In this document: piece by piece, positions 35,466-58,505 of the stretch
How the letters are laid out: every line of letters starts with the position of its first letter
How positions within the stretch are numbered: position 1 is the first letter of the stretch
Program-made: the position numbers and the translations under genes
The notes under the pieces: model-generated
What the model was told of the DNA's origin: nothing
Seen by the model: only the letters and a program-made list of their open reading frames with translations
The model's database searches: none
Assembly (NCBI RefSeq): GCF_004403465.1
Contig: NZ_SOGQ01000034.1
Coordinates: 62,001-126,000, forward strand
Source: Cryobacterium sinapicolor
Lineage (GTDB): Bacteria; Actinomycetota; Actinomycetes; Actinomycetales; Microbacteriaceae
Direction: 5' to 3'
DNA: 64,000 bases

Positions 35466-35565
35466 GTGTGGCGAATTCAGGATATCCGTCGCCTCGGTTC
35501 GCATTCGCCCCGGAAAATCGCGGAATTGGTTGTATGTCTCGGCCAATCTCCTGAGTTGGCCACAC
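35466..35565. repeat. family A 100-bp inverted repeat, copy A2
   Basis: Ends GTGTGGCGAATTCAGGA and TCCTGAGTTGGCCACAC. It shares the internal ATCCGTCGCC sequence after the left arm with copy A5. It lies in the 535-bp gene-free stretch between trpS and the DUF559 gene. Confidence 0.85.
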
Positions 35566-35679
35566 GGAGACGAACCTCGGGCCCAGGGCGACGGATCCAC
35601 TGGCAGGCCGCTCTGCTGCGCGCGGTACCCGGCCTCACTGTCGGGCGCTCGGGTTTCGGCGCGGGAGCGGCCCAACATT

Positions 35680-35779
35680 GTGTGGCTAAATCAGGACATC
35701 CGTAACGACCGTTGCCCTCCACGCCCGGAAAGTCCGGATCTGACACCGCGCTTGGGTCGATTTCCTGAGTTAGCCACAC
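35680..35779. repeat. family A 100-bp inverted repeat, copy A3
   Basis: Ends GTGTGGCTAAATCAGGA and TCCTGAGTTAGCCACAC. It is exactly as long as A2 and A4 and lies 114 bp from A2. An inner CCGGAAAGTCCGG hairpin is visible. Confidence 0.88.
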
Positions 35780-35813
35780 GGGTGCGGGCATAGAACTCTT
35801 GTCTGACCGGGTG

Positions 35814-35905
35814 GCCGGATTCGCCGGAACCGGGCGCTACGGCCCGGCCGCACCGGGAAGCCGGATTCGCCCGCACCGGGCGCTACGGCCCGGCCGGACC
35901 GAGGA
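35814..35905. repeat. 46-bp direct tandem repeat, two copies
   Basis: Two adjacent 46-bp units starting GCCGGATTCGCC, each with an internal CCGGGCGCTACGGCCCGG semi-palindrome, lie between A3 and the stop of the DUF559 gene. The units differ at only a few positions. Confidence 0.8.
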
Positions 35906-35917
35906 ACCGGAGGCAGG

Positions 35918-36808
35918 TTAGACGATGAAGGTTCGGTAGTGGCCGGCTGCCGCCAGCAGGCCCGTGATCGCGGCGATGACGCGCTCGGGGTGGTGGATGA
36001 TGTCCCGGTAGAGCACTCGCAGAGTCAGGTAGCCCCGCATGGCGAGGTCGCAATCGCGGGAGCGGTCCCGCGCGTGCGCCTCCCAACCGTCGTGGAACTG
36101 CCGGCTGTCGGCTTCGACCACGATGCGCCCCTCCACGACCATGTCGACGCGGCCGACGCCCCCGATCTCAACCTGGATCTCGACGTCGAAGCCTGCTCCC
36201 CTGATCACGAGGCGAAGCACGGTCTCCTGGCCTGATTCACTTCGGCAGTCGATGAGCCGGCGCAGGGACTGGAATTCCGCGGGCAGGGCTGCGAAGATCT
36301 GCGACACGGCCTGAGCCGTAAGCAATCTCTTGAATAAGGCATTGTCGAGCGAGGCGATCGCGAATCTCGGTTTCTGACACCGGAAAACCTGGACCAGCGC
36401 ATCGGCCAGCCCGATGCGGCACTCGGAGCCACCGGCTGGATCGAGCAGCTGACCCCAATGGAGTTCCACACCGTCTCGATTCTGGGTGGTAAGCCGCTGA
36501 AAACGATCGTGCGGGGCCCTTAACCGGGAAGCGGTGGGGTCGAGGTGGATGTGCGCGAAGGTGCTGTCCAAAACGAAAATCCCGGAGTTCGCGACCGCGG
36601 AGATGCAGGCGAGCCGCCCGCCCAGCCGCACCGCTTCGAGGACGTGCGCATCCGTATCGGGAAGCGCGTAGTGACCGCGGCGCGCCCGGACCAGATAGCC
36701 ACTCTCCACAGCCGCCCTCAGCACCCGCCAATTGGCGCCGGCGGCGTTGAGAGCCTCGGTCTCGGCGATCTGCACATTGTGGACGCGGAAATATTCTGCC
36801 CAAGTCAT
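35918..36808 (-). CDS. AbiEi-type HTH domain plus DUF559 endonuclease-like domain
   Basis: A 296-residue two-domain protein. Residues about 15-80 resemble the AbiEi_4 antitoxin-type winged helix (LRAAVESGYLVRARRGHYALP). Residues about 190-290 match the DUF559, Vsr-like nuclease fold, with IDMV-type VDMVVEGRIVVEADSRQFH (the acidic residues likely metal ligands) and LRVLYRDIIHHPERVI. No AbiEii toxin is adjacent. Its codons and GC content look lower than those of neighbours, hinting at horizontal gain. Repeats A3 and A4 flank it closely. The start ATG is preceded by CACACT at 6 nt, a possible weak leaderless promoter. Function is unknown; a DNA-nicking role is an inference from the fold. Confidence 0.72.
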   Translation of the reverse strand: MTWAEYFRVHNVQIAETEALNAAGANWRVLRAAVESGYLVRARRGHYALPDTDAHVLEAVRLGGRLACISAVANSGIFVLDSTFAHIHLDPTASRLRAPHDRFQRLTTQNRDGVELHWGQLLDPAGGSECRIGLADALVQVFRCQKPRFAIASLDNALFKRLLTAQAVSQIFAALPAEFQSLRRLIDCRSESGQETVLRLVIRGAGFDVEIQVEIGGVGRVDMVVEGRIVVEADSRQFHDGWEAHARDRSRDCDLAMRGYLTLRVLYRDIIHHPERVIAAITGLLAAAGHYRTFIV

Positions 36809-36913
36809 GTCGACAGTGTGGACAGCACGGACTCCGTCCGCCGCGTTTGCGCCGACGTGTGGACTGCTCCGGTCAACCAGTGCTGTGGAGGACGAGCGGT
36901 TGCACCGCCTACC

Positions 36914-37013
36914 CGGGGCTAACTCAGGAGGAATGGCCGTGCCACTGGGGACGGACCGCACTGGTCCGGCGTGCTGGGGCTCGGCCGGTGTAGATTTCCT
37001 GAGTTAGCCACAC
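36914..37013. repeat. family A 100-bp inverted repeat, copy A4
   Basis: The right end TCCTGAGTTAGCCACAC is intact; the left end reads GGGGCTAACTCAGGA. It lies 105 bp upstream of the DUF559 start codon. With the next hairpin it accounts for most of the 331 bp between that gene and glpK. Confidence 0.85.
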
Positions 37014-37065
37014 ATCACCCGGGAGAAGGGTCTCCGGGGAACTTCCCGCGACGGAGGGAGGGATG

Positions 37066-37103
37066 CCGAGACCCGGCGGCCAGGTGTGGCCGCCGGGTCT
37101 CGG
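37066..37103 (-). terminator. perfect 16-bp stem after glpK
   Basis: CCGAGACCCGGCGGCC and its exact reverse complement flank a 6-nt loop 36 bp after the glpK stop. There is no U run, but position and strength suggest the end of the glpFK transcript. Confidence 0.7.
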
Positions 37104-37139
37104 TGGGTGGGGTGCGCGGGATGCGCGCGGCTGTGGGAG

Positions 37140-38654
<1,515 letters not shown>

Positions 38655-38736
38655 TGTTAACTCCTTTGTCAATGCTGGGTACACGGTTGTTCAGAAACGA
38701 GACGGGAAGAGCAAGGGAGAAGAGACGAGCGGATGC

Positions 38737-39501
38737 CTAGGCCAGGATCGGCAGGAGGAACGCGGAGGTCCACCCGGCCAGGAGGCCACCGATGACAGGG
38801 CCGACGACGGGCACCCAGGAGTAGGCCCAGTCAGAGGAACGCTTGCCCTGGATCGGCAGCAGGAAGTGCGCGATGCGCGGGCCGAGGTCACGGGCGGGGT
38901 TGATCGCGTAGCCGGTCGGTCCACCGAGCGAGGTGCCGATCACGATTACGAGCAGGGCCACCGGCAGGGCGCCGAGGGCTGCCAGGCCGCCGTTCTCGCC
39001 CTGGCGTCCGCCACCGAACGCGATGACGACGAAAACGAGAACGAAGGTGCCGATGATCTCGGTGACCAGGTTCCAGCCGTACGAACGGATGGCCGGGCCG
39101 GTCGCGAACACGCCGAGCTTGCTGGCCGGATCCGGTTCCTGGTCGAAGTGCTGCTTGTAGGCAAGCCAGACGAAGGCGGCACCCAGGATGGCACCGACCA
39201 TCTGGGCCCCGATGTACGCCGCCACGGACACGGCGTTGACCGGAACTCCCGAGCCGAATTCGGTGGCCCCGGAGGACACGAGTCCAAGCGTCACGGCGGG
39301 GTTCAGGTGGGCGCCCGAGTTGTAGGAGACGATCACGCCGGCGAAGACTGCGAGGCCCCAGCCGATGGTGACCATCAGGAAACCGCCGCCGAAGCCCTTG
39401 TTCTTTGTGAGGGCGACGTTGGCGACCACCCCGCAGCCGAGTAGGACGAGGAGCGCGGTTCCCACCACTTCCGAAAGGAACACGATACCGAGATTGTCCA
39501 C
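38737..39501 (-). CDS. glpF: glycerol uptake facilitator (aquaglyceroporin)
   Basis: A 254-residue MIP-family channel that lets glycerol diffuse in. Six membrane segments are visible, with both half-helix NPA motifs intact: AHLNPAVTLG and YAINPARDLGPR, the second with the Asp-containing aquaglyceroporin form. The GTG start is preceded by AAAGGA at 7 nt. An operator-like palindrome lies about 100 bp upstream, matching sites near the SorC-type regulator and gldA. Confidence 0.95.
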   Translation of the reverse strand: MDNLGIVFLSEVVGTALLVLLGCGVVANVALTKNKGFGGGFLMVTIGWGLAVFAGVIVSYNSGAHLNPAVTLGLVSSGATEFGSGVPVNAVSVAAYIGAQMVGAILGAAFVWLAYKQHFDQEPDPASKLGVFATGPAIRSYGWNLVTEIIGTFVLVFVVIAFGGGRQGENGGLAALGALPVALLVIVIGTSLGGPTGYAINPARDLGPRIAHFLLPIQGKRSSDWAYSWVPVVGPVIGGLLAGWTSAFLLPILA

Positions 39502-39596
39502 GTTGACATCCTTTTAAATGATTGAAATGAGTGAAGCGAGAAAAACGAACAGTAAAAAACCTAGCGACTCGAGGCCGCCCATTGCGCAGACCGCGG

Positions 39597-39611
39597 TGCA
39601 CGTTTGTGCAG
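39597..39611. promoter_or_regulatory. operator-like palindrome upstream of glpF
   Basis: On the minus strand CTGCACAAACGTGCA fits the shared consensus TTGCACANAYGTKCA seen at three glycerol loci here. A possible further half-site TTGCGCA lies just beside it (39582-39588). Confidence 0.6.
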
Positions 39612-39668
39612 ATCAGGCAATGAGTCGGTAGACCGCACCCCCGGCCGGGTGGTGGGGGTCAGTGCGAA

Positions 39669-39705
39669 CGGAGGGCAGGCGGCCACAGGGACCGCCTGCC
39701 CTCCG
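39669..39705 (-). terminator. terminator after glpD
   Basis: Perfect 14-bp stem CGGAGGGCAGGCGG with a 9-nt loop, 36 bp after the glpD stop. Confidence 0.75.
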
Positions 39706-39740
39706 AGCTGTTCCGTTCTGTTTCGCGGTTCCGAGCCGCC

Positions 39741-41510
39741 CTAGACGGCCGGGGCGACCGGCGTGTCCACCGGGGCCAGATGCACGCCGTACAGGTCGAG
39801 CAGCGTGTTCGCCGCGGTGTCGACCTCGTGCGCGCACCGAGCGGCGTCCCAACCCAGGATCGGCGCGAGTACGCCGGCCAGCTCGGTGAGCAACGGCAGG
39901 GTCACTTCGCCGCGGAAGGCGATGCTGGTGCGGCGCAGCAGCAGGTCCATCAGGTGCATGACCGATTCCGTGGAGGCGATGAGCTCGATTTCACGCCGGG
40001 TGTACCCAGGGTGCTGCGCGAGCGGAGCGTCCGGTTCGGCGGTGAGCCAACTGATCACCTCGGTGGCGCGGGTGCCGTACCGGGTCAGCAGCACGTCGGC
40101 CCGCTCGGTGCCGACCTGCTTGCCGTTGGCTGCAACCCAGACCCGGCGTGCGGCGTCCGTCGCCGGGAAGTCACGGCCACCACCGATGGCCAACCCGACC
40201 GTCGAGACAGTGCGCTGCTTGCCGAGCAGGGTCAGGATGTCACCACTCATGTGTTCGGCGAGGGCGCGGAAGGTCGTCCATTTGCCACCGACCAGGCTCA
40301 GCAGGGTGCCGGGCCGGGCTCCGAGCGGGCGCGACTCGATGCGGTAATCACGGGAGACGAAACCGGGCGCCTCGTCGTCGTGGCGGGGCAGCGGGCGCAC
40401 GCCGGCGAACCGGAACACGATCTGCGACCGGTCCACGGCCACCTTCGGGAAGACGTGATTGACGAGTTCGAAGAAGTAGTCGACCTCGGCCTCGGTGCAG
40501 CGCGCCGGCTGGGTCATGTCGTGCTCGAGGTCGGTCGTGCCGACCAGAACGCGTCCCGCGAGCGGGTAGATCAGCACGATGCGGCCGTCTTTGTGCTCGA
40601 AGAAGATCTCGCGGCCGCCGGTCGCGGCAAGCAACTCCGGGTTGTCGAGCACGACGTGCGAGCCCTTGGTGCCGCCCATGTAGGTGCTGGCCTGGCCGAG
40701 GGCCGTGTTCGTGAGGTCGGTCCAGGGTCCGGACGTGTTGACGACGATGTCGGCTTCAAAGCTGAATTCGGCACCGGTGACCGTGTTGCGGAGGCGCACG
40801 CCCGCGGCATCCATGCCGACGGCCTCGATGTAGTTGGCGCTGCGGGCGTGGGTGCCGGCTGCCAAGCCATCGAACAAAACGTCGAGGGCGAGGCGCTCCG
40901 GGTCGTGCATGGAGGCGTCGTAGTAGGTGGCCGTGTACTTGAGGCTCGGGTTGATCTGCGGCAGCAGCTTGAGCGATGCCTTCCGTCCGAGGAACTCGTG
41001 CCGGGGCACGTTGCCGCCGTCGCGGGAGAAGGAGTCGTAGAGCATCATGCCGATCTTGATCAGCAGCGCTCCGCGTTCCTGGGCCGCACCCTGCTTGTGG
41101 GTGAGGAAACGCATCGGCGCGGACATCACGCCGGAGACGGTGGAGTAGATCGGGATGGTCGTCTTGAGCGGCTTGACGTAGTGGGGGGCGATCTTGAGGA
41201 GGCTGTTGCGCTCCTCGACCGACTCCTTGACGAGGCGGAATTCGCCGTTCTCCAGGTAGCGCACGCCGCCGTGAATCATGTGCGAGGACGCCGAGGAGGC
41301 CCCGGAGACGTAGTCGCCCCTGTCGACGATGGCTACATCGACGCCCTGGAGGGCCAGATCGCGGAAAGTCGCGATGCCGTTGATGCCAGCTCCGATGATG
41401 AGGACCTGGGCCCGGGGCCGGTCCTGGATGGCCGCCTGGGCGGCAGCGCCACTGGACTGAGGCGGGGCGGAGGATGACTGATCGGGTGTGGACAGCACTG
41501 ATTCGCTCAC
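39741..41510 (-). CDS. glpD: aerobic glycerol-3-phosphate dehydrogenase
   Basis: GlpD oxidises glycerol-3-phosphate to dihydroxyacetone phosphate at the membrane, passing electrons to quinone. The roughly 589-residue FAD protein has VLIIGAGINGIATFRDLALQG near the N-terminus, SSHMIHGGVRYLENGEF, YDASMHDPERL, DLTN and the C-terminal GGKWTTFRALAEHM and DAARRVW region. It completes the GlpF-GlpK route. The start is uncertain: I use the GTG giving MSESVLSTPDQ; an in-frame GTG 12 codons upstream (41546) and one 4 codons downstream are possible, none with a strong ribosome binding site. It is divergent from the SorC-type regulator, sharing the operator region. Confidence 0.93.
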   Translation of the reverse strand: MSESVLSTPDQSSSAPPQSSGAAAQAAIQDRPRAQVLIIGAGINGIATFRDLALQGVDVAIVDRGDYVSGASSASSHMIHGGVRYLENGEFRLVKESVEERNSLLKIAPHYVKPLKTTIPIYSTVSGVMSAPMRFLTHKQGAAQERGALLIKIGMMLYDSFSRDGGNVPRHEFLGRKASLKLLPQINPSLKYTATYYDASMHDPERLALDVLFDGLAAGTHARSANYIEAVGMDAAGVRLRNTVTGAEFSFEADIVVNTSGPWTDLTNTALGQASTYMGGTKGSHVVLDNPELLAATGGREIFFEHKDGRIVLIYPLAGRVLVGTTDLEHDMTQPARCTEAEVDYFFELVNHVFPKVAVDRSQIVFRFAGVRPLPRHDDEAPGFVSRDYRIESRPLGARPGTLLSLVGGKWTTFRALAEHMSGDILTLLGKQRTVSTVGLAIGGGRDFPATDAARRVWVAANGKQVGTERADVLLTRYGTRATEVISWLTAEPDAPLAQHPGYTRREIELIASTESVMHLMDLLLRRTSIAFRGEVTLPLLTELAGVLAPILGWDAARCAHEVDTAANTLLDLYGVHLAPVDTPVAPAV

Positions 41511-41601
41511 TTCTCTGTGGGGGTAGAAACCGTGATGTTCTGTCACAGCCGGCCCGCAATCGCATTCGGGAGAGCGGGAACTCTACCAACCCTGCTAGGT
41601 T

Positions 41602-41617
41602 CTACACAAATGGTCAA
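41602..41617. promoter_or_regulatory. operator-like site, distal copy in the glpD-regulator gap
   Basis: CTACACAAATGGTCAA matches the consensus TTGCACANAYGTKCAA at 12 of 15 defined positions and lies 21 bp, about two helical turns, from the better site. Confidence 0.45.
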
Positions 41618-41622
41618 GCGGT

Positions 41623-41638
41623 TTGAACATATGTGCAA
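41623..41638. promoter_or_regulatory. operator-like palindrome overlapping the regulator's leader
   Basis: TTGAACATATGTGCAA is a near-perfect palindrome; its reverse complement TTGCACATATGTTCAA matches the sites by glpF and gldA. It ends 9 nt before the regulator start and overlaps the ribosome binding site region, suggesting autoregulation. Confidence 0.65.
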
Positions 41639-41647
41639 GGAGTCAGA

Positions 41648-42622
41648 ATGACCCATCCGGACGACCTCTCCCTGTCCGACCGCACCAGCGATACGCTCAC
41701 GGCCGCTCACCTTTATTACATGCAGGACCTGACCATGGACGCCATCGCGCGGGAGCTGCACACCTCTCGCTCCTCGGTGTCCCGCCTGCTCAGCCAGGCC
41801 AGGGCCAGCGGGCTGGTCGACATCCAGATCAGATCCCCCCTCGACGCGACGAGCCGGGTGGAGAAACTGATTCTGGACCGCTTCCAGGTCACCGCGCACG
41901 TCGTGCCGGTACCCGACCACGCGAGCGACGTCGACCGTTTGGAACGAGTGGCCCTGTCGGTTGCACGGATTCTCGGCGAGTTCGTCGACTCGAACATGAT
42001 CATGGGCATCGCTTGGGGCTCCACGATGAATGCGGTCAGCCGCCACGTGACCCCCAAACGCACACACAATGCGCAGATCGTACAGCTGAACGGCGCCGGC
42101 AACACGCGCAGCACCGGACTCGACTACGCCAACGAGATCCTGCAGCGGTTCAGCACCGCGTTCGGCGCCCGCCTGGAACAGTTCCCGGTTCCCACCTTCT
42201 TCGACGACCCCGCCACGCGCACGGCGTATTGGCGGGAACGCGGCCTGCGCCGACTGCTGGAGATGCAGAGGAACATGGACGTCGCCCTTTTCAGCGTGGG
42301 TTCACCCTTCTCGAATGTGCCCAGCCACGTCTATGTCGGCGGCTACCTGGACGACGACGAGCTCGACGCGCTCAGCGACGCGGGGGTCGTCGGCGACGTC
42401 GCGACGGTCTTCTATCGCGCGGACGGCTCGACCGACGGAATCCCGCTCAACGAACGCGGAACCGGCCCGGAACTGTCGGTGTTGCGCCGCACCCCCCGGC
42501 GCATCTGCGTCGTCTCGGGCAGGTCCAAGGTGGACAGCCTCCGAGGGGCGCTGGCGGCCGGCCTGATCACCGACCTGTTCATCGACGAGAGCACCGCCCG
42601 GGCACTCTGCGAGGGACCATGA
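41648..42622 (+). CDS. SorC-family sugar-binding transcriptional regulator (glycerol locus)
   Basis: A 324-residue regulator. The N-terminal helix-turn-helix (about residues 18-55: AHLYYMQDLTMDAIARELHTSRSSVSRLL) is followed by a SorC/DeoR-type effector domain binding a phosphorylated sugar (GIAWGSTMNAVSRHV, SVGSPFSN, GDVATVFYRADG). It is divergent from glpD and next to gldA. The start ATG follows AAGGAG at 5 nt, placing the proximal operator-like palindrome inside the leader. A role as regulator of the glycerol genes, with glycerol-3-phosphate or DHA phosphate as effector, is inference from position and shared sites. Confidence 0.88.
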   Translation: MTHPDDLSLSDRTSDTLTAAHLYYMQDLTMDAIARELHTSRSSVSRLLSQARASGLVDIQIRSPLDATSRVEKLILDRFQVTAHVVPVPDHASDVDRLERVALSVARILGEFVDSNMIMGIAWGSTMNAVSRHVTPKRTHNAQIVQLNGAGNTRSTGLDYANEILQRFSTAFGARLEQFPVPTFFDDPATRTAYWRERGLRRLLEMQRNMDVALFSVGSPFSNVPSHVYVGGYLDDDELDALSDAGVVGDVATVFYRADGSTDGIPLNERGTGPELSVLRRTPRRICVVSGRSKVDSLRGALAAGLITDLFIDESTARALCEGP

Positions 42623-42697
42623 GGAAGGCCCGCCGGCGGCCAGTGGACGTTCGTGGCAACCGGCGGAGCGACGGGTCAGTGCGTCAGCGCGAACGAC

Positions 42698-43843: not shown

Positions 43844-44132
43844 GATGGACCTTCTTCCTGGTCGAACTGCGTCTACATCTTCGTGGGACGGCGGCGGTGA
43901 ACCGGTCTTCCGGGGCACAGATTTCACACTACGCCCGCCGCTTGGGCCGATGCCGGATGCCCCGTGGCCAGCGGCCGCGCGACCGCACGACGAACGCGAT
44001 TCCGGCACATGCGCCCACGTCGCGGTCGTGGCAAGCGGATCGGGTTTTCCGCAGAAACAGGCGCAAACAGCCATTTTTCTGAATGCTATTCAGGAATTGC
44101 CCGTGCGTGTCGGCGGTTCCAAAGGGCGCCGC

Positions 44133-44147
44133 TGCACGTGTGTGCAA
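44133..44147. promoter_or_regulatory. operator-like palindrome upstream of gldA
   Basis: On the minus strand TTGCACACACGTGCA, the best match to the consensus. It lies about 290 bp before gldA and 60 bp after dhaM. The 364-bp gap otherwise holds a GC-rich hairpin (about 44157-44186) with arms GCGGGCGGCCGGC and GCCGGCGCCCGC that may end dhaKLM. Confidence 0.6.
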
Positions 44148-44207
44148 AGACGGCGCCCGCGGGCGGCCGGCGTGAAGCCGGCGCCCGCGAGCGCCTTTTC
44201 CTGATCC

Positions 44208-46682: not shown

Positions 46683-46685
46683 GGT

Positions 46686-47330: not shown

Positions 47331-47334
47331 GGTG

Positions 47335-48333: not shown

Positions 48334-48435
48334 GGTGAGACCTCCAGGATTATCTTCATGTTTGCTCTCCGTTGAACTTTTCGAGCTGGATCCGCGAGGC
48401 TGCTTCGTCCGCGACTCAAAGAAATACAGAACGCA

Positions 48436-48452
48436 ATTCGACAATGTCGAAT
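48436..48452. promoter_or_regulatory. 17-bp perfect palindrome, likely IclR-type operator
   Basis: ATTCGACAATGTCGAAT is perfectly symmetric about one central base and lies 103 bp from dhaK and 90 bp from the IclR gene. TTCGA half-sites are common in IclR-family operators. Confidence 0.65.
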
Positions 48453-48541
48453 ATCCTCCGGACGAATGCCCGATGTCAACACGGAGAATGAAAAGACGTC
48501 GGTGACGCGGCATACTGAAAGGACCAACCTGAGGGGCAGCT

Positions 48542-49327: not shown

Positions 49328-49411
49328 GAGCCGTGCACGATCTGGCTAGCAGCGCCGGGAATTCTTCCGCGGCCGACGCGTTGAGATATAACTAGTAGTA
49401 GTTACAAGAAA

Positions 49412-49539
49412 CGTGCTCCGGGGTCGGTGTAAGTCCGAACCGGCGGTGAAAGTCCGCGACCCGTGCCGCTCCCAGAGCGGAACGGTTGAGCTGGTGAAAT
49501 TCCAGCACCGACGGTTAAAGTCCGGATGAGAGGCGCACG
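49412..49539 (+). promoter_or_regulatory. FMN riboswitch (RFN element) of the riboflavin operon
   Basis: The closing stem CGTGC/GCACG encloses the conserved RFN segments: CGGGGTCGGTGTAAGTCC, ACCGGCGGTGAAAGTCCGCGA, a variable hairpin GCCGCTCCCAGAGCGG, TGGTGAAATTCCAG and ACCGACGGTTAAAGTCCGGA, then GATGAGAGG. It lies 107 nt before ribD. A following hairpin around 49566-49594 (GGCGGGTTTCGCG/CGCGACCCACC) may be the switched terminator or sequestor. TATAAC at 49387-49392 is a likely -10. Confidence 0.93.
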
Positions 49540-49646
49540 AGTCGATTGACCTTCCCGGTCGGTCGGCGGGTTTCGCGTATGCGCGACCCACCAGGTGTTT
49601 GCCGCACCGAAAACCCGGAGTCCGTTCACTGACGGACAGGACGGGA

Positions 49647-50663: not shown

Positions 50664-50670
50664 GACACCC

Positions 50671-51303
50671 ATGTTCACCGGAATCATCGAGGAACTCGGC
50701 CACGTCGAGAAGGTGGAGCTATCCACGGATGCGGCCCGCCTCACCATCCGCGGCCCGCGAGTCGTCGCCGACGCCGGCCACGGCGACTCGATCGCCGTCA
50801 ACGGGGTCTGCCTCACCGTGGCAGAGCGGACCGGCGACACATTCACGGCCGATGTGATGGCCCAGACCCTCCTCATGTCCACGCTCGACGCCGCCCGCGC
50901 CGGCAGCCCGGTCAACCTCGAGCGCGCCGCCCTGGTGGGCGACCGCCTGGGCGGCCACATCGTGCAGGGCCACATCGACGGCACCAGCACCCTGCTTGTC
51001 GTCACCCCCGGCGAGGCTTGGCGGGTGCTGCGGTTCAGCCTCTCCCCCGAACTCGCCCCGCTCGTGGTGGGCAAGGGCTCCATCGCCGTGGACGGCGTCT
51101 CGCTGACCGTCAGCAACATCAGCCCGGCGAGCGATCCGGACCAATGGTTCGAAGTCTCGCTCATCCCCGAAACCCTCACCCATACGACGCTGGGACAGCG
51201 CACGATCGGCGATCACGTCAACATCGAAACCGACATCCTGGCCCGTCACGTTGAGCGCATGCTCGCTTTGGCGGACGTGGGATCGAAAAGGAGCCACTCA
51301 TGA
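50671..51303 (+). CDS. ribE: riboflavin synthase
   Basis: Riboflavin synthase dismutates two lumazines to riboflavin. The 210-residue protein has two similar beta-barrel halves: MFTGIIEELG with SIAVNGVCLTV in the first and GGHIVQGHIDGT with GSIAVDGVSLTV in the second, ending in a helical tail for trimer formation. These are complete family motifs. Its stop overlaps the start of ribBA (ATGA). Confidence 0.95.
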   Translation: MFTGIIEELGHVEKVELSTDAARLTIRGPRVVADAGHGDSIAVNGVCLTVAERTGDTFTADVMAQTLLMSTLDAARAGSPVNLERAALVGDRLGGHIVQGHIDGTSTLLVVTPGEAWRVLRFSLSPELAPLVVGKGSIAVDGVSLTVSNISPASDPDQWFEVSLIPETLTHTTLGQRTIGDHVNIETDILARHVERMLALADVGSKRSHS

Positions 51304-52562
51304 GCCTCGCCGACATTCCCACCGCACTGGATGCCCTCCGGCTGGGGAAACCGGTCATCGTCGCCGACGACGAGGGCCGCGAGAACGAGGGCGACGTGAT
51401 CATCTCCGCGCAGATGGCCACGCAGGAGTGGATCGCCTGGACCGTGCGGTACTCCTCCGGCTTCATCTGCGCGCCGATGACCAACGACCTCGCCGACAAG
51501 CTCGACCTGCCGGTGATGGTGCAGAACAATGAGGACCCCCGCGGCACGAACTACACGGTCTCGGTCGACGCGGCCGACCGGCTCAGCACCGGGATCAGCG
51601 CGGCCGACCGCGCACACACCCTGCGCGTGCTGGCCGACCCGGCCTCCACGCCGTCCAGCCTGCACCGGCCCGGCCACATCATGCCGCTGCGCTCGATGGA
51701 CGGCGGGGTCCGCGAGCGTGACGGCCACACCGAGGCTGCCGTCGACCTGATGAAACTGGCCGGCCTCGTGCCGGTAGCCGGGATCTGCGAGATCGTCGCC
51801 GAAGACGGCGAAATGATGCGCCTGCCCGGACTGCTCGCCCTCGGCGAGCGCGAGGGCGTGCTGGTGATCACGATCAAGGACCTGATCGCCTACCTGCAGG
51901 AGTTCCACACCGACACCGAGCTGCCCACGGTCAGCCCGATCCTCGAGTCGCCGCGGGTCGACTTCGAGGTGGAGACCACGGTTCCCACCCGGCACGGCCA
52001 CTTCCAGGTGCGTGCCTACCGGGACCGGATGACCGGCGCCGACCACGTCGCCATCGTCTCCGGCACCCCCGTGGACGGCGCCATCGTGCGGGTGCACTCC
52101 GAGTGCCTCACCGGTGAGGCGTTCGGTTCGCTCAAATGCGAGTGCGGCCCCCAGCTCGACGCTGCCCTGGAGACCATCCAGGAGTTCGGCGGGGTCGTCG
52201 TCTACCTGCGCGGCCAAGAGGGCCGAGGCATCGGGCTGATCAACAAGCTGCGCGCCTACAAGCTGCAGGAGGAGGGCCTGGACACCTTCGACGCCAACGT
52301 GGCCCTCGGCCTTCCCGCCGACTCCCGCGACTACGGCGCCGCCACGGCCATCCTGCACGAATTGGGTCTCTCCTCCGTGCGGCTGCTGACCAACAACCCG
52401 GAGAAGATGCGCCAGCTCGAGGCGCACGGCGTGACCGTGATCGAGCGCGTGCCGCTCGTCGTCGGCGTCGGCGCGCACAATCAGGACTACCTGGCGGTCA
52501 AACGCGACCGGATGGGCCACCACATCGCCGAAGCAGACATGCTGAAAGGAATCGCACTATGA
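51300..52562 (+). CDS. ribBA: 3,4-DHBP synthase / GTP cyclohydrolase II
   Basis: This 420-residue bifunctional enzyme supplies both precursors of riboflavin. RibB (residues 1-205) has VIVADDEGRENEGDVI with the metal-binding acidic residues and HTEAAVDLMKLAG. RibA (about 210-420) has the zinc cysteines in ECLTGEAFGSLKCECG, RGQEGRGIGL and LLTNNPEKM. Both active sites look complete. It overlaps ribE and ribH by ATGA. Confidence 0.96.
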   Translation: MSLADIPTALDALRLGKPVIVADDEGRENEGDVIISAQMATQEWIAWTVRYSSGFICAPMTNDLADKLDLPVMVQNNEDPRGTNYTVSVDAADRLSTGISAADRAHTLRVLADPASTPSSLHRPGHIMPLRSMDGGVRERDGHTEAAVDLMKLAGLVPVAGICEIVAEDGEMMRLPGLLALGEREGVLVITIKDLIAYLQEFHTDTELPTVSPILESPRVDFEVETTVPTRHGHFQVRAYRDRMTGADHVAIVSGTPVDGAIVRVHSECLTGEAFGSLKCECGPQLDAALETIQEFGGVVVYLRGQEGRGIGLINKLRAYKLQEEGLDTFDANVALGLPADSRDYGAATAILHELGLSSVRLLTNNPEKMRQLEAHGVTVIERVPLVVGVGAHNQDYLAVKRDRMGHHIAEADMLKGIAL

Positions 52563-53041
52563 GCGGAGCAGGCTCCCCGGAGATCGAGATCGACGGAACC
52601 GGGCTGGACATCGTGATCGTCGCCGGACGGTGGCATGACGTGATCACCGACGGACTGATCGCCGGCGCGACCCGGGTGCTCGAGGCATCCGGTGCCCGGT
52701 ACTCGCTCGTGCGGGTGCCCGGCAGCTTCGAGTTGCCGGTGGCGTGCAAGGTGGCCCTCGACAACGGCGCCGACGCGGTCGTCGCGCTCGGCGTGATCAT
52801 TCGTGGCGGCACGCCGCACTTCGAGTACGTGTCGTCGGCGGCGACGGATGGCCTCACCCGGGTGGCGCTGGACACCGGCAAGCCGGTCGGTTTCGGCGTG
52901 CTCACCCTCGACGACGAGCAGCAGGGCCTGGACCGTGCCGGCCTGCCCGGTTCGAAGGAGGACAAGGGCGAGGAGGCGGCCGCGGCGGCGATCGCGACCG
53001 CTCAGCTGCTGCAGAAGCTGCGCGCGTGCACGTTCGAGTGA
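52559..53041 (+). CDS. ribH: 6,7-dimethyl-8-ribityllumazine synthase
   Basis: RibH condenses the RibBA and RibD products to lumazine, the substrate of RibE, in an icosahedral shell. The 160-residue protein has VPGSFELPVACK, VALGVIIRGGTPHFEYV with the conserved His, and PVGFGVLTLDDEQQ. The usual GETPHF motif reads GGTPHF. It is last in the rib operon; palindrome C2 follows the stop directly. Confidence 0.95.
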   Translation: MSGAGSPEIEIDGTGLDIVIVAGRWHDVITDGLIAGATRVLEASGARYSLVRVPGSFELPVACKVALDNGADAVVALGVIIRGGTPHFEYVSSAATDGLTRVALDTGKPVGFGVLTLDDEQQGLDRAGLPGSKEDKGEEAAAAAIATAQLLQKLRACTFE

Positions 53042-53044
53042 TCC

Positions 53045-53096
53045 CATTCCGGCCGAGAGTGCCCGTTCCGCGGGTCACTCTCGACCGGAACGGGCA
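53045..53096. repeat. family C palindrome, copy C2
   Basis: Arms TTCCGGCCGAGAGTGCCCG and CGGGTCACTCTCGACCGGAA match C1 with two changes. It begins 4 nt after the ribH stop and may serve as the rib terminator. Confidence 0.8.
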
Positions 53097-53132
53097 CTGC
53101 GCGGCGGCATCCGTGTACCTGCGCAGGCAGAT

Positions 53133-53190
53133 GTTGCCGCATCGGACAACAGTTGCCGGCGTGCCAGCAACAGTTGTCCGAACGGGCAAC
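53133..53190. repeat. 58-bp palindrome E1, same geometry as C1
   Basis: Two 28-nt arms (GTTGCCGCATCGGACAACAG left; CTGTTGTCC-type right) with a few mismatches and a 2-nt loop. The sequence is unrelated to C but the length and loop are the same. It lies between the convergent ribH and ABC-2 permease genes. Confidence 0.8.
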
Positions 53191-53196
53191 AGTTGC

Positions 53197-53230
53197 GTCG
53201 CGCACGGGAGCTAGTCGCGCACGGGAGCTA
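53197..53230. repeat. 17-bp tandem duplication spanning the ABC-2 permease stop
   Basis: GTCGCGCACGGGAGCTA occurs twice head to tail; on the minus strand each copy contains a TAG, the second being the gene's stop codon. Confidence 0.85.
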
Positions 53231-54052
53231 GTCGAGGAAGAGGGTGCGCAGGCGCCGGGTGGTGAAGATCAGGCCGAGCAGGATCATCACCAGATAGTAG
53301 AGCACGTGCCAGAGCATCCCGGCGTCGACTTGGCCGGTGGTCAGGCCGCGCACGAGCTCGACACCGTGCCAGAGCGGGAGCGCCTGGATCACGTACTGGA
53401 TCGGCTGCGGGTAGACGCTGAGCGGGTAGAACGTGGCCGAGAACAGGAACATCGGTAGCAGCAGGAAGGTGATCCAGTCCATCTGCTGGAACGTCTTCAT
53501 GAAGCTCGTGACGGCCATCCCCACGCTCGCGAAGCCGAACGCGATCAGGAGCACGGCCGGCAGGGCCAGCAGCGCCCACCAAGACAGGTTGAGCCCGAGC
53601 GCCTGCATCACGACCAGAAAACCGGTGGCGTAAAGCGCCCCACGGAGCAGTGCCAGCGAGATCTCGCCGAGCGCGACATCCAGCGGGCCGAGCGAGGTGG
53701 CCAGCATGCCCTCGTAGAGCTTGGCGAACTGCATCTTGAAGAACACGTTCCAGGTGGAGTCGTAGATGGCTCCGTTCATGGCGGCGACGGCGAGCAGCGC
53801 GGGTGCGATGAACGCCGCGTACGGCACCTCCTGGCCCGACTCGGTCGTGATCGTGCCGACCAGGGCGCCCAGGCCGAGGCCCATCGAGAGTAGGTAGAAG
53901 ATCGGCTCGAAGAAGCCGCTGACCACGACCAGCCAGTTGGTGCTCCGGGTCGCCTGCCAGCCCCGGAGCATGACGCTGCGGGCGTTCCCGGCGTAGAACG
54001 CGCCGAGCGGGCCGGATGCCCGGGCACCCGTTCGCTGGTCGGTGCCGGTCAT
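53228..54052 (-). CDS. ABC-2 type exporter permease (DrrB/NodJ-like), second copy
   Basis: A 274-residue ABC-2 permease with six membrane segments, including GALYATGFLVVMQAL and the FLLLPMFLFSATFYPLSVYP motif typical of NodJ/DrrB proteins. It should form, with the preceding permease, the channel for the ATPase two genes upstream. Its ATG overlaps the stop of that permease. The substrate is unknown; such systems export drugs, glycolipids or polysaccharide. Confidence 0.88.
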   Translation of the reverse strand: MTGTDQRTGARASGPLGAFYAGNARSVMLRGWQATRSTNWLVVVSGFFEPIFYLLSMGLGLGALVGTITTESGQEVPYAAFIAPALLAVAAMNGAIYDSTWNVFFKMQFAKLYEGMLATSLGPLDVALGEISLALLRGALYATGFLVVMQALGLNLSWWALLALPAVLLIAFGFASVGMAVTSFMKTFQQMDWITFLLLPMFLFSATFYPLSVYPQPIQYVIQALPLWHGVELVRGLTTGQVDAGMLWHVLYYLVMILLGLIFTTRRLRTLFLD

Positions 54053-54909
54053 TTGTTCAGCCGCCTCGCCGTGATGCGGCGGGCCCAGGCCCAGCCGACA
54101 GCGAGCAGCACCGCCAGGTAGAGCACGTGCAGCACGCTCAGCCAGAGCGGTTCGCTCAGCCCGTAAGCGAAGACGCGGGCCAGCTCGGTGCCGTGCCAGA
54201 GCGGGGAGATCCAGCCGATCCACTGCAGCCAGACCGGCAGCACAGCAAGCGGGAAGAAGGTGCCGGAGAACAGGGTCATCGGCAGGATGACGAAGCGCAT
54301 CACCATGGCCAGCTGGCCGGTGTCCTCGGTCAGGGTGGCCGTGTACGCCATCAGCAGCACGCCGAAACCGAGCCCGGTGAGCACGGCGACGAACACCGCG
54401 AGAAACCCGGTCGCCGAGGGGACCGCGCCGAACAGCAGCATGAAGGCGTAGAAGATGCCGCAGGTGACGAAGATGCGCACGAAGACCGCGATGACGATGC
54501 CGTTGATGATCTGGCCGGGCTGGATCGGGGCGGCGTTCATCGCGAAGAACACCGGGTTCCACTTGAAGCCGATCATGATCGGGTAGGTGAATTCGTCGCT
54601 GGCCACGGCGATCGCCGCGCTGCAGAGGAGGGCGGGAGCGACGAACGCCAGGTAGCTGACCCCGCCCACGGCATCCGTGCCCAGGTTGGCGTCGACGAGG
54701 GTGGCCAGGCCGACCCCCATCGCGTAGAGGTAGATGATCGGGTTGCCGATCGCGGTCACCGTGACCGTCTGGGCGTAGGCGCGCAGTGACAGGAAGCGGT
54801 GCTCGGCCACATACCAGGAGCCCCAGCGCCGGGTGCGCCGGGTGGAACGGATGGCCCGGTCGCCGACGGAGCCGGGCGGCGGGGCGGCGCCGGTGTGCTC
54901 GGCTGTCAT
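54049..54909 (-). CDS. ABC-2 type exporter permease (DrrB/NodJ-like), first copy
   Basis: A 286-residue paralogue of the following permease, with six membrane segments and the equivalent motif ILPMTLFSGTFFPLAVLP. Two related permease genes with one ATPase suggest a heterodimeric channel. The ATG overlaps the ATPase stop (ATGA), and its own stop overlaps the second permease. Confidence 0.88.
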   Translation of the reverse strand: MTAEHTGAAPPPGSVGDRAIRSTRRTRRWGSWYVAEHRFLSLRAYAQTVTVTAIGNPIIYLYAMGVGLATLVDANLGTDAVGGVSYLAFVAPALLCSAAIAVASDEFTYPIMIGFKWNPVFFAMNAAPIQPGQIINGIVIAVFVRIFVTCGIFYAFMLLFGAVPSATGFLAVFVAVLTGLGFGVLLMAYTATLTEDTGQLAMVMRFVILPMTLFSGTFFPLAVLPVWLQWIGWISPLWHGTELARVFAYGLSEPLWLSVLHVLYLAVLLAVGWAWARRITARRLNK

Positions 54910-55832
54910 TCGATCAGGGTCCGTCCGGTCAGCCGCAGGAACACGTCTTCCAGGCTGGAGCGGCGCACCAGGCTGGTGATCGGGGTGAGGCCGGCGTCCA
55001 CGATGCGCACCAGCTCGGACTCGCCGTTCTCGCTGTAGATCAGGATGCGGTCGGGCAGCACCTCGATGCGGTCGCCCATGCCGGCGATCTGCGCCGCCAC
55101 ATCGGCGTTGAGGTCGGAGCCGAACCGCACCTCCAGCACCTCCCGGGAGGAGTAGGTGCGGATCAGCTGCGCCGGGGCACCCTCGGCCATGATCACACCG
55201 TTGTCGATCACAACCAGGCGGTCGCAGAGCTGCTCGGCCTCGTCCATGTAGTGGGTGGTGAGCAGCAGGGTCGTGCCTTGCTCCTTGAGCCGGAACAGGC
55301 GGTCCCAGAGGATGTGCCGGGCCTGCGGGTCGAGGCCCGTGGTCGGTTCGTCGAGCAGCAGGATGCTCGGGTCATTGATCAGGGCGCGCGCGATCGTGAG
55401 GCGTCGCTTCATGCCCCCGGATAGCGCGTCGACCTTCGACTTCGCCTTGTCCTCCAGCTGCGCGAACGCCAGCAGCTCGTCAGTACGCCGGGCCACCTGC
55501 GCCCGCGGCAGGCCGAAGTAGCGGCCGTAGACGAGCAGGTTCTCACGCACCCGCAGCTCGGTGTCGAGGTTGTCGGCCTGCGGCACCACGCCGAGGCGGG
55601 AGCGAATCTCCGGGCCGTACCGGTTCGGGTCGAGGCCCAGGACGCGCAGGTCGCCGCCGGTACGGGTGGAGACGGCCCCCACCAGGCGCATGGTGGTCGA
55701 TTTGCCGGCCCCGTTCGGGCCGAGCAGTCCGAACGATTCGCCGGGTGCCACCTCGAAGGAGATGCCGTCGACGGCGGCGAAATCCTGGTACTTCTTGACG
55801 AGATTCTGGGCAACGATAACTGGCTCCGGCAC
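54906..55832 (-). CDS. ABC exporter ATPase (DrrA/NodI-like)
   Basis: A 308-residue ATPase that powers the two ABC-2 permeases encoded next. It has Walker A GPNGAGKST, the Q-loop VVPQ, signature LSGGMKRRL, Walker B LLLDEPTTGLDP and H-loop TTHYMDEAE, then a C-terminal domain of about 80 residues as in DrrA/NodI. The GTG start lies 58 bp from the divergent GTG of a second ABC exporter. Confidence 0.93.
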   Translation of the reverse strand: MPEPVIVAQNLVKKYQDFAAVDGISFEVAPGESFGLLGPNGAGKSTTMRLVGAVSTRTGGDLRVLGLDPNRYGPEIRSRLGVVPQADNLDTELRVRENLLVYGRYFGLPRAQVARRTDELLAFAQLEDKAKSKVDALSGGMKRRLTIARALINDPSILLLDEPTTGLDPQARHILWDRLFRLKEQGTTLLLTTHYMDEAEQLCDRLVVIDNGVIMAEGAPAQLIRTYSSREVLEVRFGSDLNADVAAQIAGMGDRIEVLPDRILIYSENGESELVRIVDAGLTPITSLVRRSSLEDVFLRLTGRTLIE

Positions 55833-55878
55833 AGTTCCTCACTGTAGACCGCCGGGCCGACACGCAGCGGGATGCGGT

Positions 55879-55884
55879 TAAGCT
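55879..55884 (+). promoter_or_regulatory. -10 box TAAGCT of the half-size ABC exporter (leaderless type)
   Basis: TAAGCT ends exactly 6 nt before the GTG and there is no ribosome binding site. Confidence 0.55.
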
Positions 55885-55890
55885 CATTCA

Positions 55891-58347
55891 GTGAGTACCC
55901 CCCGCAGCCCCCGTTCCACCGCCCGACCGACCGACCGACCGACCGCCGGCCCGACCGCTCATCCTGCCGCCCGTGGTCGCCTCGGCCGGATGGGGCGCCG
56001 CGGCGCCGATGCCGGCGGACCCCGCGCGACGTTCAGCCAGCTGGTCCCGTATCTGCTCGAGCACAAGAAGGTGCTCAGCTTCGTGGTCGTGCTCAGTATC
56101 CTCGGCGCCGCCGCCAGCCTCGCCCAGCCGCTCCTGGTCAGCCAGGTCATCACCATCGTGCAGGAGGGCGACGCGCTCGGCGGTCTGGTCTGGGCCCTGG
56201 TAGCGCTCGTCGTCATCTCCGCTCTGATCAGCGGTTACCAGCACTACTTGCTGCAGCGCACCGGCGAAGGGGTGGTGCTGTCCAGCCGCCGCAACCTGAT
56301 CGGGCGGATGCTGCGCCTCCCGATCAGCGAATTCGATACCCGCCGCACGGGCGACCTGGTCTCCCGGGTGGGGTCGGACACCACGCTGCTGCGGGCCGTG
56401 CTCACTCAGGGTCTCGTCGAGGCGATCGGCGGGTCGCTGACGTTCGTCGGCGCGCTCATCGCCATGCTCGTGATCGATCCGGTGCTGCTCGGGCTGACCG
56501 TGCTGGTGATCGCCGTGTCGGTGGTCACCGTCACACTGCTGTCGCAGCGCATCCGGACCGCCAGCCTGGCCGCGCAGGCCAAGGTCGGCGACCTCGCCGC
56601 CAGCGTCGAACGCGCCATCAGCGCGGTGCGCACCGTGCGCGCCTCGAACGCCACCGACCGGGAGATCGCCGCGGTCGAGGAGGACGCCATGGGTGCCTGG
56701 CGGATGGGCATCCAGGTCGCGAAGATCTCGGCCCTCGTCGTGCCGATCGCCGGAATCGCCATGCAGGTGTCGTTCCTGGTCGTGCTCGGAGTGGGCGGAT
56801 TCCGCGTGGCCAGCGACACCATCACGATCGCGGACCTGATCGCGTTCATCCTGTTCCTGTTCCTGATGATCGTGCCGCTCGGCCAGGCGTTCGGCGCGAT
56901 CACCTCGGTGAACGCCGCGCTCGGTGCCCTCGGACGCATCCAGGAGATCATCGACCTGCCCGCCGAGGACCAGTTCGACCGCGACATCGCGCCGCTGGCC
57001 ATCACGGTCGGCGCCGCGAACGAGTCGGTGCGGCCCGATGCCCCGGCGATTTCGTTCGAGAACGTTCAGTTCGGCTATTCGGTCGCCCCCTCGGCGACGG
57101 ATGCCGCGAGCGCGGAGGCCGAGTCGGCCGCCGGCGATGATGCTGGTGCTGGTACTGGTGCTGGTGCTGGTGCTGGTGCTGGTGCTGGTGCTGGTGCTGG
57201 TGCTGGTGCTGGTGCTGGTGCTGGTGCTGGTGCTGGTGCTATCGGTTCTGCTGCCACCGTTCCGTCCGGTGCCGGTCGTTCCGCTCACACGGCTTCCGAC
57301 GCCGAACTCGTCGCCGCGGAGAACGCGATGATCGAGACCGCCGTCGCGGCGCCGTTCGTGCTCGAGACCGCCATCGTGGTTCCGGCCGTGATGGAGGCCG
57401 CTCCGGCCGTGATGGAGGCTGCTCCGGCCGAACCCGATCTGGCCGAGGCCGATGTCGCGGCCGCGGACCGCGCCGACACGGCACGCGGCACCGCTCCCGA
57501 TGCCACTGCCACTGCTGCTGCTGCCACCGACCGGATGGCCCCGCAGGCCGCCGAACGCGCCGCTGCCGCCACTGCCGACGCTTCCGACCGGGCCGTCGAG
57601 CAGGCGTCCGAGCAGGCCGCCGAACGCGCGACCGGGCGCAGCGACGCCGACGCCGCCGGTGAGCCGCGCCCGGTGCTCCGCGGGGTCACCTTCGACGCCC
57701 CGCGCGGCAAGCGCACCGCCCTGGTCGGCCCGTCCGGAGCCGGCAAGAGCACCATCCTGGCCCTGATCGAGCGGTTCTACGACCCGACCGACGGCGTTGT
57801 GCGCATGGGGGGACTGGATATCCGTACCCTCGATCGCACGGCCCTGCGCTCCCAGATCGGCTACGTCGAGCAGGACGCCCCCGTGCTGGCCGGTTCGCTG
57901 CGGGACAACCTGACCCTGTCCACGCCAGACGCCACCGACGAGGAATGCATCGCCGTGCTCCACGCCGTGAACCTCTCCGAGGTGCTCGAGCGCGACCCGG
58001 CCGGTCTCGGCGCGGCGGTCGGCGAGTCGGGTGTGATGCTCTCCGGCGGCGAACGCCAGCGGCTGGCGATCGCGCGAGCCCTGCTGGCCGCGCCGCCCAT
58101 CCTGCTGCTGGACGAGTCCACCTCGAGCCTCGACGGCGTCAACGAGCAGAAGATGCGGGCCGCGATCGACGCGGTCGCCGTGGACCGCACCCTGATCGTG
58201 ATCGCGCACCGGCTGTCAACCGTGGTCGACTCCGACCAGATCGTGGTGCTCGACCACGGGCAGGTCATCGGCACCGGAACCCACTCCGAACTGGTGGCCT
58301 CGACGCCGCTCTACCGCGAACTCGCCAAGCACCAGCTGCTCGTCTAG
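55891..58347 (+). CDS. half-size ABC exporter with a split nucleotide-binding domain
   Basis: An 818-residue homodimer-type exporter (MsbA/LmrA-like). Residues 1-40 are basic and low complexity; six membrane segments span about 50-340. The NBD opens with ISFENVQFGY, where Tyr396 is the A-loop, then is interrupted by about 190 residues (roughly 399-592) rich in Ala, including Ala-Gly repeats at 418-450 from a GCTGGT tract. It resumes at VLRGVTFDAPRGK with Walker A GPSGAGKST (613-621), Q-loop YVEQD, signature LSGGERQ (717) and Walker B LLLDES. All catalytic motifs remain, so it is probably active with an extruded loop. Most family members are about 580-620 residues. Substrate unknown. Confidence 0.9.
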   Translation: MSTPRSPRSTARPTDRPTAGPTAHPAARGRLGRMGRRGADAGGPRATFSQLVPYLLEHKKVLSFVVVLSILGAAASLAQPLLVSQVITIVQEGDALGGLVWALVALVVISALISGYQHYLLQRTGEGVVLSSRRNLIGRMLRLPISEFDTRRTGDLVSRVGSDTTLLRAVLTQGLVEAIGGSLTFVGALIAMLVIDPVLLGLTVLVIAVSVVTVTLLSQRIRTASLAAQAKVGDLAASVERAISAVRTVRASNATDREIAAVEEDAMGAWRMGIQVAKISALVVPIAGIAMQVSFLVVLGVGGFRVASDTITIADLIAFILFLFLMIVPLGQAFGAITSVNAALGALGRIQEIIDLPAEDQFDRDIAPLAITVGAANESVRPDAPAISFENVQFGYSVAPSATDAASAEAESAAGDDAGAGTGAGAGAGAGAGAGAGAGAGAGAGAGAGAIGSAATVPSGAGRSAHTASDAELVAAENAMIETAVAAPFVLETAIVVPAVMEAAPAVMEAAPAEPDLAEADVAAADRADTARGTAPDATATAAAATDRMAPQAAERAAAATADASDRAVEQASEQAAERATGRSDADAAGEPRPVLRGVTFDAPRGKRTALVGPSGAGKSTILALIERFYDPTDGVVRMGGLDIRTLDRTALRSQIGYVEQDAPVLAGSLRDNLTLSTPDATDEECIAVLHAVNLSEVLERDPAGLGAAVGESGVMLSGGERQRLAIARALLAAPPILLLDESTSSLDGVNEQKMRAAIDAVAVDRTLIVIAHRLSTVVDSDQIVVLDHGQVIGTGTHSELVASTPLYRELAKHQLLV
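57142..57240 (+). repeat. GCTGGT hexanucleotide tract within the ABC exporter gene
   Basis: About 16.5 units in frame, with one ACT interruption, encode alternating Ala-Gly. The T-ending codons GCT and GGT are rare in the surrounding gene, which suggests slippage expansion. Unit gain or loss would keep the frame. Confidence 0.95.
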
Positions 58348-58380
58348 CCAGCTGCTCGTCTAGCCAGCTGCTCGTGAAGC
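58333..58380. repeat. 16-bp tandem repeat, three copies, spanning the ABC exporter stop
   Basis: CAGCTGCTCGTCTAGC is repeated head to tail (third copy GTGAAGC at the end). The first copy contains the last codons and TAG stop of the exporter, the second another TAG. Confidence 0.9.
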
Positions 58381-58394
58381 CCGGGCTGCCGCCC

Positions 58395-58505
58395 CTGTGG
58401 CTAACTCAGGACATCCGTCGCCCCGGTTGCCCGGACGCCGCGGGCCAGTGCGGATCGAGTGCGGATGTCCAGACCGGCCGGACGGATCTCCTGAGTTAGC
58501 CACGC
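58395..58505. repeat. family A inverted repeat, copy A5 (111 bp)
   Basis: Arms GTGGCTAACTCAGGA and TCCTGAGTTAGCCAC, with pairing extending inward through ATCCGTC to about 30 bp with a few mismatches. It lies between the convergent exporter and mannosidase genes. Confidence 0.88.

Follow-up and report, generated by a model that had tools for sequence, protein, structure and literature searches.

A family of dispersed inverted-repeat elements of about 100 bp, together with a gene that lies between two of its copies, most likely forms a partnership resembling that of repetitive extragenic palindrome (REP) sequences and their dedicated nucleases (REPtrons) but built of unrelated parts. Both are found in a 64 000 nt stretch of the Cryobacterium sinapicolor genome (the window; C67:62001-126000 of genome G000, a 3.53 Mb draft of 96 contigs). 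Four computed properties carry this proposal: the elements, termed family A, change in length by regular steps, the gene is bracketed by them, the type of protein matches the family of element arms, and the putative active-site residues of the gene product, P0001, are invariant. The gene and the family A elements of the window are as follows.

35918..36808, minus strand: partner gene, 296 amino acids (P0001), with a predicted AbiEi-like N-terminal fold and an MTES_1575/DUF559 (Vsr-like) nuclease domain, flanked to left and right by family A elements
35466..35565: family A element of 100 bp in full, 96 bp when measured between its GTGGC ends
35680..35779: 100 bp family A element 3′ of the partner gene, with 140 bp between its GTGGC end and the gene end
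36914..37013: 100 bp family A element 5′ of the partner gene, with 106 bp between it and the gene start
58395..58505: family A element of the 107 bp length class, its interior 75-83% identical to those of copies of this class at different loci
2477..2565: variant A′ element of the 85 bp class, with CTCCTG in its arms instead of CTCAGG; the relative G024 carries it at the same place

Family A elements are dispersed, extragenic inverted doublets

A sequence-only reading of the window had proposed five copies with shared ends, three of them exactly 100 bp long. These three lengths are correct, and four of the copies have the ends described; the fifth (2477-2565) is a variant with the arms GTGGCTAACTCCTGT / GTGGCCAACTCCTGA, in which CCT replaces the AGG of the other copies. 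The window holds eight matches to the 17-mer GTGTGGCTAACTCAGGA with up to three mismatches, against 0.1 expected, and 0 of 100 shuffles reach this number. In the whole of G000 there are 93 matches (43 + 50), against four for the reversed control. Around them lie approximately 44 paired family A elements, two of which are the CCT variant and some of which stand in tandem duplications, so the set extends well past the window copies. Their lengths between the GTGGC ends are 85 bp (2 elements), 96 bp (6), 97 bp (10), 106 bp (9), 107 bp (9), 108 bp (5), and 116, 118 and 128 bp (one each).

The occurrence of copies in convergent, divergent and tandem gene gaps, also claimed earlier, holds genome-wide. 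Nineteen of the 44 elements lie in tandem gaps, 14 in convergent gaps and 4 in divergent gaps, and 2 are at contig ends; with elements that also overlap a small open reading frame (ORF) included, as called by a rough ORF caller, the convergent and divergent counts become 17 and 6. For comparison, the window itself has 28 tandem, 11 convergent and 11 divergent gene pairs. The elements are thus inverted doublets that are extragenic and dispersed, few of them overlapping small predicted ORFs. The exact paired pattern was found in records of Cryobacterium and Glaciibacter superstes (among the best 80 of 105 stretches) and in 3 of 299 genomes of the family Microbacteriaceae, all three being Cryobacterium, a genus represented by 6 genomes in that sample. 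Hosts of the Cryobacterium type are cold-loving bacteria.

Element lengths step with the turn of the double helix

Lengths were compared among 176 family A elements from G000 and 105 named stretches of relatives, counting pairs of up to 130 bp (9 longer pairs of 142-265 bp were omitted, and loci L051-L070 are outside the set, as L329 is outside alignment A1). Peaks are seen at 85-87 bp (12 elements), 95-98 bp (108), 106-109 bp (49) and 115-118 bp (4), with single elements of 91, 125 and 128 bp; the 115 and 125 bp members stem from a duplicated right arm. Between the peaks (88-94, 99-105 or 109-114 bp) there are 2 of the 176 elements. The pattern used to pick the named stretches took any length from 84 to 114 bp, and therefore these gaps are not an artefact of the search. 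When one length was taken from each of 112 interior clusters, made at 75% identity, the mean resultant was R = 0.90 for a period of 10.5-10.6 bp and at least 0.89 across 10.2-10.9 bp. A step of 10.2-10.9 bp, best at 10.5-10.6 bp, is the phasing of B-DNA. Orthologous elements of groups A and D differ by a 10 bp gap in the interior, and their arms are still alike.

The family A arm reads GTGGCYAAYTCAGGA, followed by a weaker GATCCG, and interiors have a median pairwise identity of 57%, compared with 51% for shuffled sequence. Two sister families share this layout. Family B, with GCATAACTCCTGCA arms, comprises 64 distinct elements of 81-82 bp (4), 90-95 bp (56) and 102-103 bp (4), for which the best length period is 10.9-11.1 bp. 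Family C, with CGAATTCGACGGAGATT arms, comprises 52 elements, 49 of them 81-82 bp long. A further arm type, A2, reads GTTGCTACTTCAGG. The central motif CC-CG....TTCCG-GG is common to families A and B and is well above the shuffled control in each. The sequence-only reading did not notice the helical steps in length, the two sister families or the position of the partner gene between copies of its own element.

Some individual elements have unusual structures. At G000:C59:139861-140006 (L048 2864-3005) the right arm of a family A element is present three times in tandem at 17 bp steps, and at L176 2256-2480 (G013:C30) there is an A element whose left portion is present in four direct copies at steps of 42-43 bp, near four helix turns. 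Identical A elements at L042 308-415 (G000:C76) and L043 2555-2662 (G000:C78) have left flanks alike at 254 of 300 positions and right flanks alike at 24 of 60, which reflects either a rearrangement with its breakpoint at the element or an effect of assembly. Of the 176 A elements, 19 have the sequence CGGCATCCGTC no more than 250 bp away.

P0001 combines a predicted AbiEi-like fold with a Vsr-like nuclease domain

In Pfam, P0001 matches MTES_1575 (E = 4e-9, 36.8 bits, cut-off 38.2), DUF559 (E = 4e-5, above the cut-off) and AbiEi_4 (below the cut-off); the numbers of matching proteins among 75 scanned homologues are 63, 51 and 35 respectively. One report describes the MTES_1575 domain as a restriction endonuclease of the Vsr fold (PMC3710099). 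PADLOC matches P0001 to AbiEi (E = 2.4e-6), and NCBIfam holds no family for it. The AlphaFold2 model has a mean predicted local distance difference test (pLDDT) value of 94 and a predicted template modelling (pTM) score of 0.89. With this model, Foldseek returned one PDB match at E ≤ 0.001, the AbiEi antitoxin 6y8q (E = 1.8e-4, probability 1.00, TM 0.41 by target, root mean square deviation 9.2). The C-terminal domain matches the catalytic domain of the homing endonuclease I-Bth0305I (3r3p) with TM 0.77 by target, a root mean square deviation of 2.9, probability 1.00 and E = 0.018. Because seven residues (E195, Q212, D222, E232, H239, D248 and R264) are invariant in 75 proteins, the nuclease appears to be intact. 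Five of these, E195, D222, E232, H239 and D248, we take to be equivalent to the EDxHD catalytic residues.

Homologues at E ≤ 1e-20 are present in 189 of the 299 family genomes and in 59 of 85 genera, Cryobacterium counted. Phage records contain matches to P0001 of less than 60% identity only (2 of 50 697), as do plasmid records (4 of 72 556), and the search of viral contigs with the paired element pattern gave 0 matches. On these grounds a phage or plasmid origin was rejected.

The gene is bracketed by its own elements

By an automatic rule that requires paired repeats on both sides of a gene sharing a 9-mer, 34 of 76 homologues are bracketed, a set that includes the window gene and 26 loci from a family-wide search. 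The rule is passed by 29 of the 52 homologues with at least 40% identity and by 5 of the 24 below 40%. Among 146 control ORFs taken from two contigs, 4 pass, two of them being such nuclease genes and the other two lying in one cluster of A elements. The comparison of 34 of 76 homologues with 2 of 144 other ORFs gives a Fisher p of 2e-16, uncorrected for kinship. Beside other MTES_1575 genes (L264, L270 and L272) there is no A or B pair, and a DUF559 match occurs in 12 of 176 loci. At the family-wide loci the arms beside homologues differ between genera. The two passing control ORFs that are not such nuclease genes (L046 3154-3951 and 4483-5292; G000:C67:136153-138291) have A elements between them and on their outer sides, and B elements lie nearby.

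Protein type and arm family match

The neighbours of the partner gene in the window are a gene for a class I tRNA synthetase (W/Y; tRNA-synt_1b) and a gene for an FGGY kinase (glpK-like). Thirty loci at the glpK-like gene were compared, one of them G000's own, with arm typing that covered A, A2, B and C arms. A homologue is present in 14. Homologues of 60-100% identity have A or A2 arms in all 12 rows (about 9 genomes), and homologues of 44-52% identity have B arms in all 8 rows (8 genomes, one row being a 72-residue fragment). At L173, which has a homologue of 34% identity, an A element lies several kilobases from the gene. The 16 loci that lack a homologue comprise 14 with neither A nor B arm and 2 with a single B arm, as judged from at most 500 bp of sequence per locus (for L220, 180 bp); some of these stretches, that of L221 among them, may be cut by contig ends. 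At five loci of relatives without the partner gene (L211, L212, L217, L219 and L220) other long palindromes were noticed by eye downstream of the glpK-like gene.

Paralogues within one genome can have different arms. The second homologue in G000 (C67:21848, 33% identity) has C elements approximately 235 bp away on each side, so that G000 carries genes with A and with C arms, and G026 carries three kinds. For bracketed loci with alike arms on both sides (n = 32), arm similarity tracks protein identity with a Mantel r of 0.839, a value reached in 0 of 5000 permutations.

Arm numbers follow the same division. The median is 47 A arms in 9 genomes with an A-type gene versus 3.5 in 28 without (p = 0.004), and 32 B arms in 17 genomes with a B-type gene versus 6.5 in 24 without (p = 0.0001), both uncorrected for kinship. 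Three genomes with an A-type gene have a low number of A arms: G015 and G016, which carry the A2 arm, and G001, in which the arms that flank the gene are a variant. Exact arms make up 60 of 89 in G000 (60 confirmed by script among the 87 in fetched loci) versus 32 of 81 in G008, G017, G026, G033 and G034, five genomes that lack an A-type gene and for which the arm list is complete; this lower share fits decay after loss of the partner. In G153, which belongs to another genus, a pattern made from the arms that flank the gene has 27 exact matches, 4 in the two source pairs and 23 elsewhere. The same pattern has one match in 17 other genomes (in G013; 0 in the remaining 16). Nine dispersed pairs in G153 are 89-92 bp long and the two source pairs 100-101 bp, one turn apart.

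A model for the proposed partnership and its alternatives

We consider it reasonably probable that the arms are bound as duplex DNA by a dedicated AbiEi-like/nuclease protein, with a phased spacer, co-divergence of the pair, and dispersal and upkeep driven by the nuclease. The element would be a double-stranded site with two inverted arms of approximately 15-21 bp each, read as duplex by a protein that combines an AbiEi-like DNA-binding fold with a Vsr/EDxHD-like nuclease domain. With whole helix turns between them, both arms would lie on the same face of the DNA, where two protein subunits could form a synapse with a loop of about 100 bp, perhaps aided by the central motif common to families A and B. 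With the gene placed between copies of its own element, protein and arm sequence would diverge together. By analogy with REPtrons, the nuclease would cut the element or the DNA close to it, and in this way disperse copies in trans and keep the arms intact.

Several results weigh against this model. With regard to the architecture of the element, family C offers no test of phasing, since it has a single length class. When all genomes are pooled, arm position 9 is strongly associated between the two arms (CC 101, TT 43, TC 18, CT 11); this association is ascribed to lineage and is expected if species differ in arm type. Element interiors also fold better than shuffled sequence, with a mean z of -1.7 against a control that preserves mononucleotide composition only.

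The last of these results would suit an RNA hairpin within a transcript, for instance a terminator or 3′-end structure, as would the ability of the arms to form a strong stem and the frequency of convergent and tandem gaps. In the central register, however, symmetric pairing of the interior is equal to or below a cross-element control in six length classes, with small excesses at some shifted registers. Within G000 (n = 41, three duplicate elements removed) the two arms vary independently at positions 6 and 9: at position 6 the letters are identical in 23 elements, a number attained in 585 of 5000 permutations (expectation 19.1), and at position 9 in 29 (expectation 29.0). A length period of 10.5 bp is unexpected for a hairpin, and the Rfam gathering scan of the window found only a flavin mononucleotide (FMN) riboswitch, located elsewhere. 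An RNA hairpin is therefore very improbable, and we read the element as a duplex DNA site whose two arms, as their spacing suggests, would lie on one face of the helix.

Further results that weigh against the model concern the association of gene and element. Forty-two of the 76 homologues fail the strict bracketing rule, and at the 26 family-wide loci, 25 of them in other genera, paired repeats are present on both sides in 11, on one side in 10 and on neither in 5. The A-type genes of G025, G021 and G001 have a pair on one side only, and there is no pair beside the B-type genes of G020 and G006. A arms persist in genomes without an A-type gene (27 in G032, 23 in G026 and 22 in G034), and G001 and G006 have B-type genes with one exact B 13-mer each. 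Lastly, the Mantel result cannot separate recognition from common descent; we favour recognition because paralogues of one genome carry different arms.

The remaining difficulties concern mobility. Flanking direct repeats of at least 4 bp are found at 7 of 190 A elements and at 7 in a shifted control (at least 5 bp, 5 of 190 versus 2), and there is no clean empty site: 338 elements with flanks gave 49 junction-spanning alignments, which by eye are self or overlapping-copy matches or gapped alignments to diverged sequence. No sign of excision was found either. Of the nine A/C elements in the stretch that G000 and G024 have in common, eight are present in both; a C element at G000:C67 21530 is missing from G024, with a junction that is not clean.

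An ordinary miniature inverted-repeat transposable element (MITE), moved by an unrelated DDE transposase and with the AbiEi-nuclease gene as merely a frequent neighbour, would have terminal inverted repeats and a length of about 100 bp, as family A does. Copies of the 107 bp class at different loci have interiors up to 85% identical, and therefore whole elements have probably been copied; the 25 pairs most similar to each other have flanks that agree at 0.56, compared with 0.48 for all pairs. The MITE explanation is nevertheless improbable, given that target duplications of at least 4 bp are not in excess and that arm type follows nuclease type. No autonomous copy was noticed among unpaired arms of the 96-contig G000 draft, which were not searched systematically.

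A host chromosomal or regulatory site is a more serious rival, because elements are often retained at orthologous sites with diverged flanks. The AbiEi-like protein would then be an architectural factor or regulator that has been domesticated, and the elements would be operator or looping sites under host selection, with which the length steps and arm conservation are compatible. A study of Streptococcus agalactiae AbiEi describes cooperative binding to inverted repeats (PMC7319586). Against this, the putative nuclease residues are invariant in 75 homologues, 4-6 of the 44 elements lie in divergent gaps, and a single site holds A, A2, B, other palindromes, or neither A nor B in different species. 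At the end of G024:C41 (L354), for example, which is orthologous to window position ~58395, a C element starts at the contig end, and G000 has an A element. We regard a host role as possible but unlikely.

Of the natures proposed in the sequence-only reading, REP-like elements and protein-binding sites thus survive, and a MITE with target duplication and a structured RNA are disfavoured; its remark that no target-site duplication is obvious agrees with the shifted control. As a refutation, that reading named the presence of the element at identical loci in every relative without signs of mobility or covariation. This applies in part: orthologous sites are indeed often shared, and the covariation found is between arm and protein rather than within a stem.

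Relation to described systems

The partnership proposed here resembles REP doublets (REPINs) and their REP-associated tyrosine transposases (RAYTs) in its dispersed extragenic inverted doublets, preferred spacings and several families per genome, and in having a dedicated one-gene nuclease that is flanked by the repeat and co-evolves with it. REPtron organisation and protein-repeat co-evolution are described in PMC3116915 and PMC8266576. Judged by organisation alone, the system would be of the REPtron kind. A RAYT was rejected as the partner on the basis that the Y1 HuH transposase domain (PF01797) is found in 0 of 41 genomes of the genus, a search that was positive in 5 of 14 control genomes. 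Because there is no such transposase, the arms are not palindromes and the interior lacks compensatory pairing, the system works like a REPtron but is not a member of that group; its lengths, in addition, step with the helix.

AbiE type IV systems are similar in that P0001 has the AbiEi fold according to Foldseek (6y8q, with a modest TM) and PADLOC, and AbiEi binds inverted repeats (PMC7319586). In contrast to AbiE, P0001 is fused to a nuclease domain, the spacing of approximately 100 bp is stepped, dispersal is genome-wide, and no AbiEii toxin gene is adjacent at the window locus, where the neighbours encode the FGGY kinase and the tRNA-synt_1b protein. With Vsr-like/EDxHD nucleases such as I-Bth0305I, P0001 shares the C-terminal domain and the invariant putative catalytic residues, but here the gene is free-standing beside its own dispersed paired repeats and the domain is fused to an AbiEi-like fold. 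No report linking these proteins to repeats was found in the open-licence literature, as judged mostly by titles and the openings of abstracts. In that literature we found no described element/nuclease partnership into which either the protein or the DNA logic would fit. The chances are about even that this is an undescribed class of genomic tenant in Microbacteriaceae, in which short phased duplex elements are dispersed and kept intact by a resident, co-evolving AbiEi-fold/Vsr-like nuclease, as a non-homologous counterpart of REP/RAYT that acts on double-stranded DNA.

If true, this would give a role to a large protein family annotated as a 'domain of unknown function', establish a second, unrelated origin of REP-like element/nuclease partnerships, and provide many natural pairs of protein and DNA site from which to learn the recognition code of an AbiEi-like domain. 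Because of the helical steps in length, the model lends itself to a direct test.

Other features of the window

Two family C elements and an FMN riboswitch are also present in the window.

4915..4995: family C element with CGAATTCGACGGAGATT arms, 81 bp
13657..13737: family C element, 81 bp
49410-49541: FMN riboswitch (RF00050, 100.6 bits)

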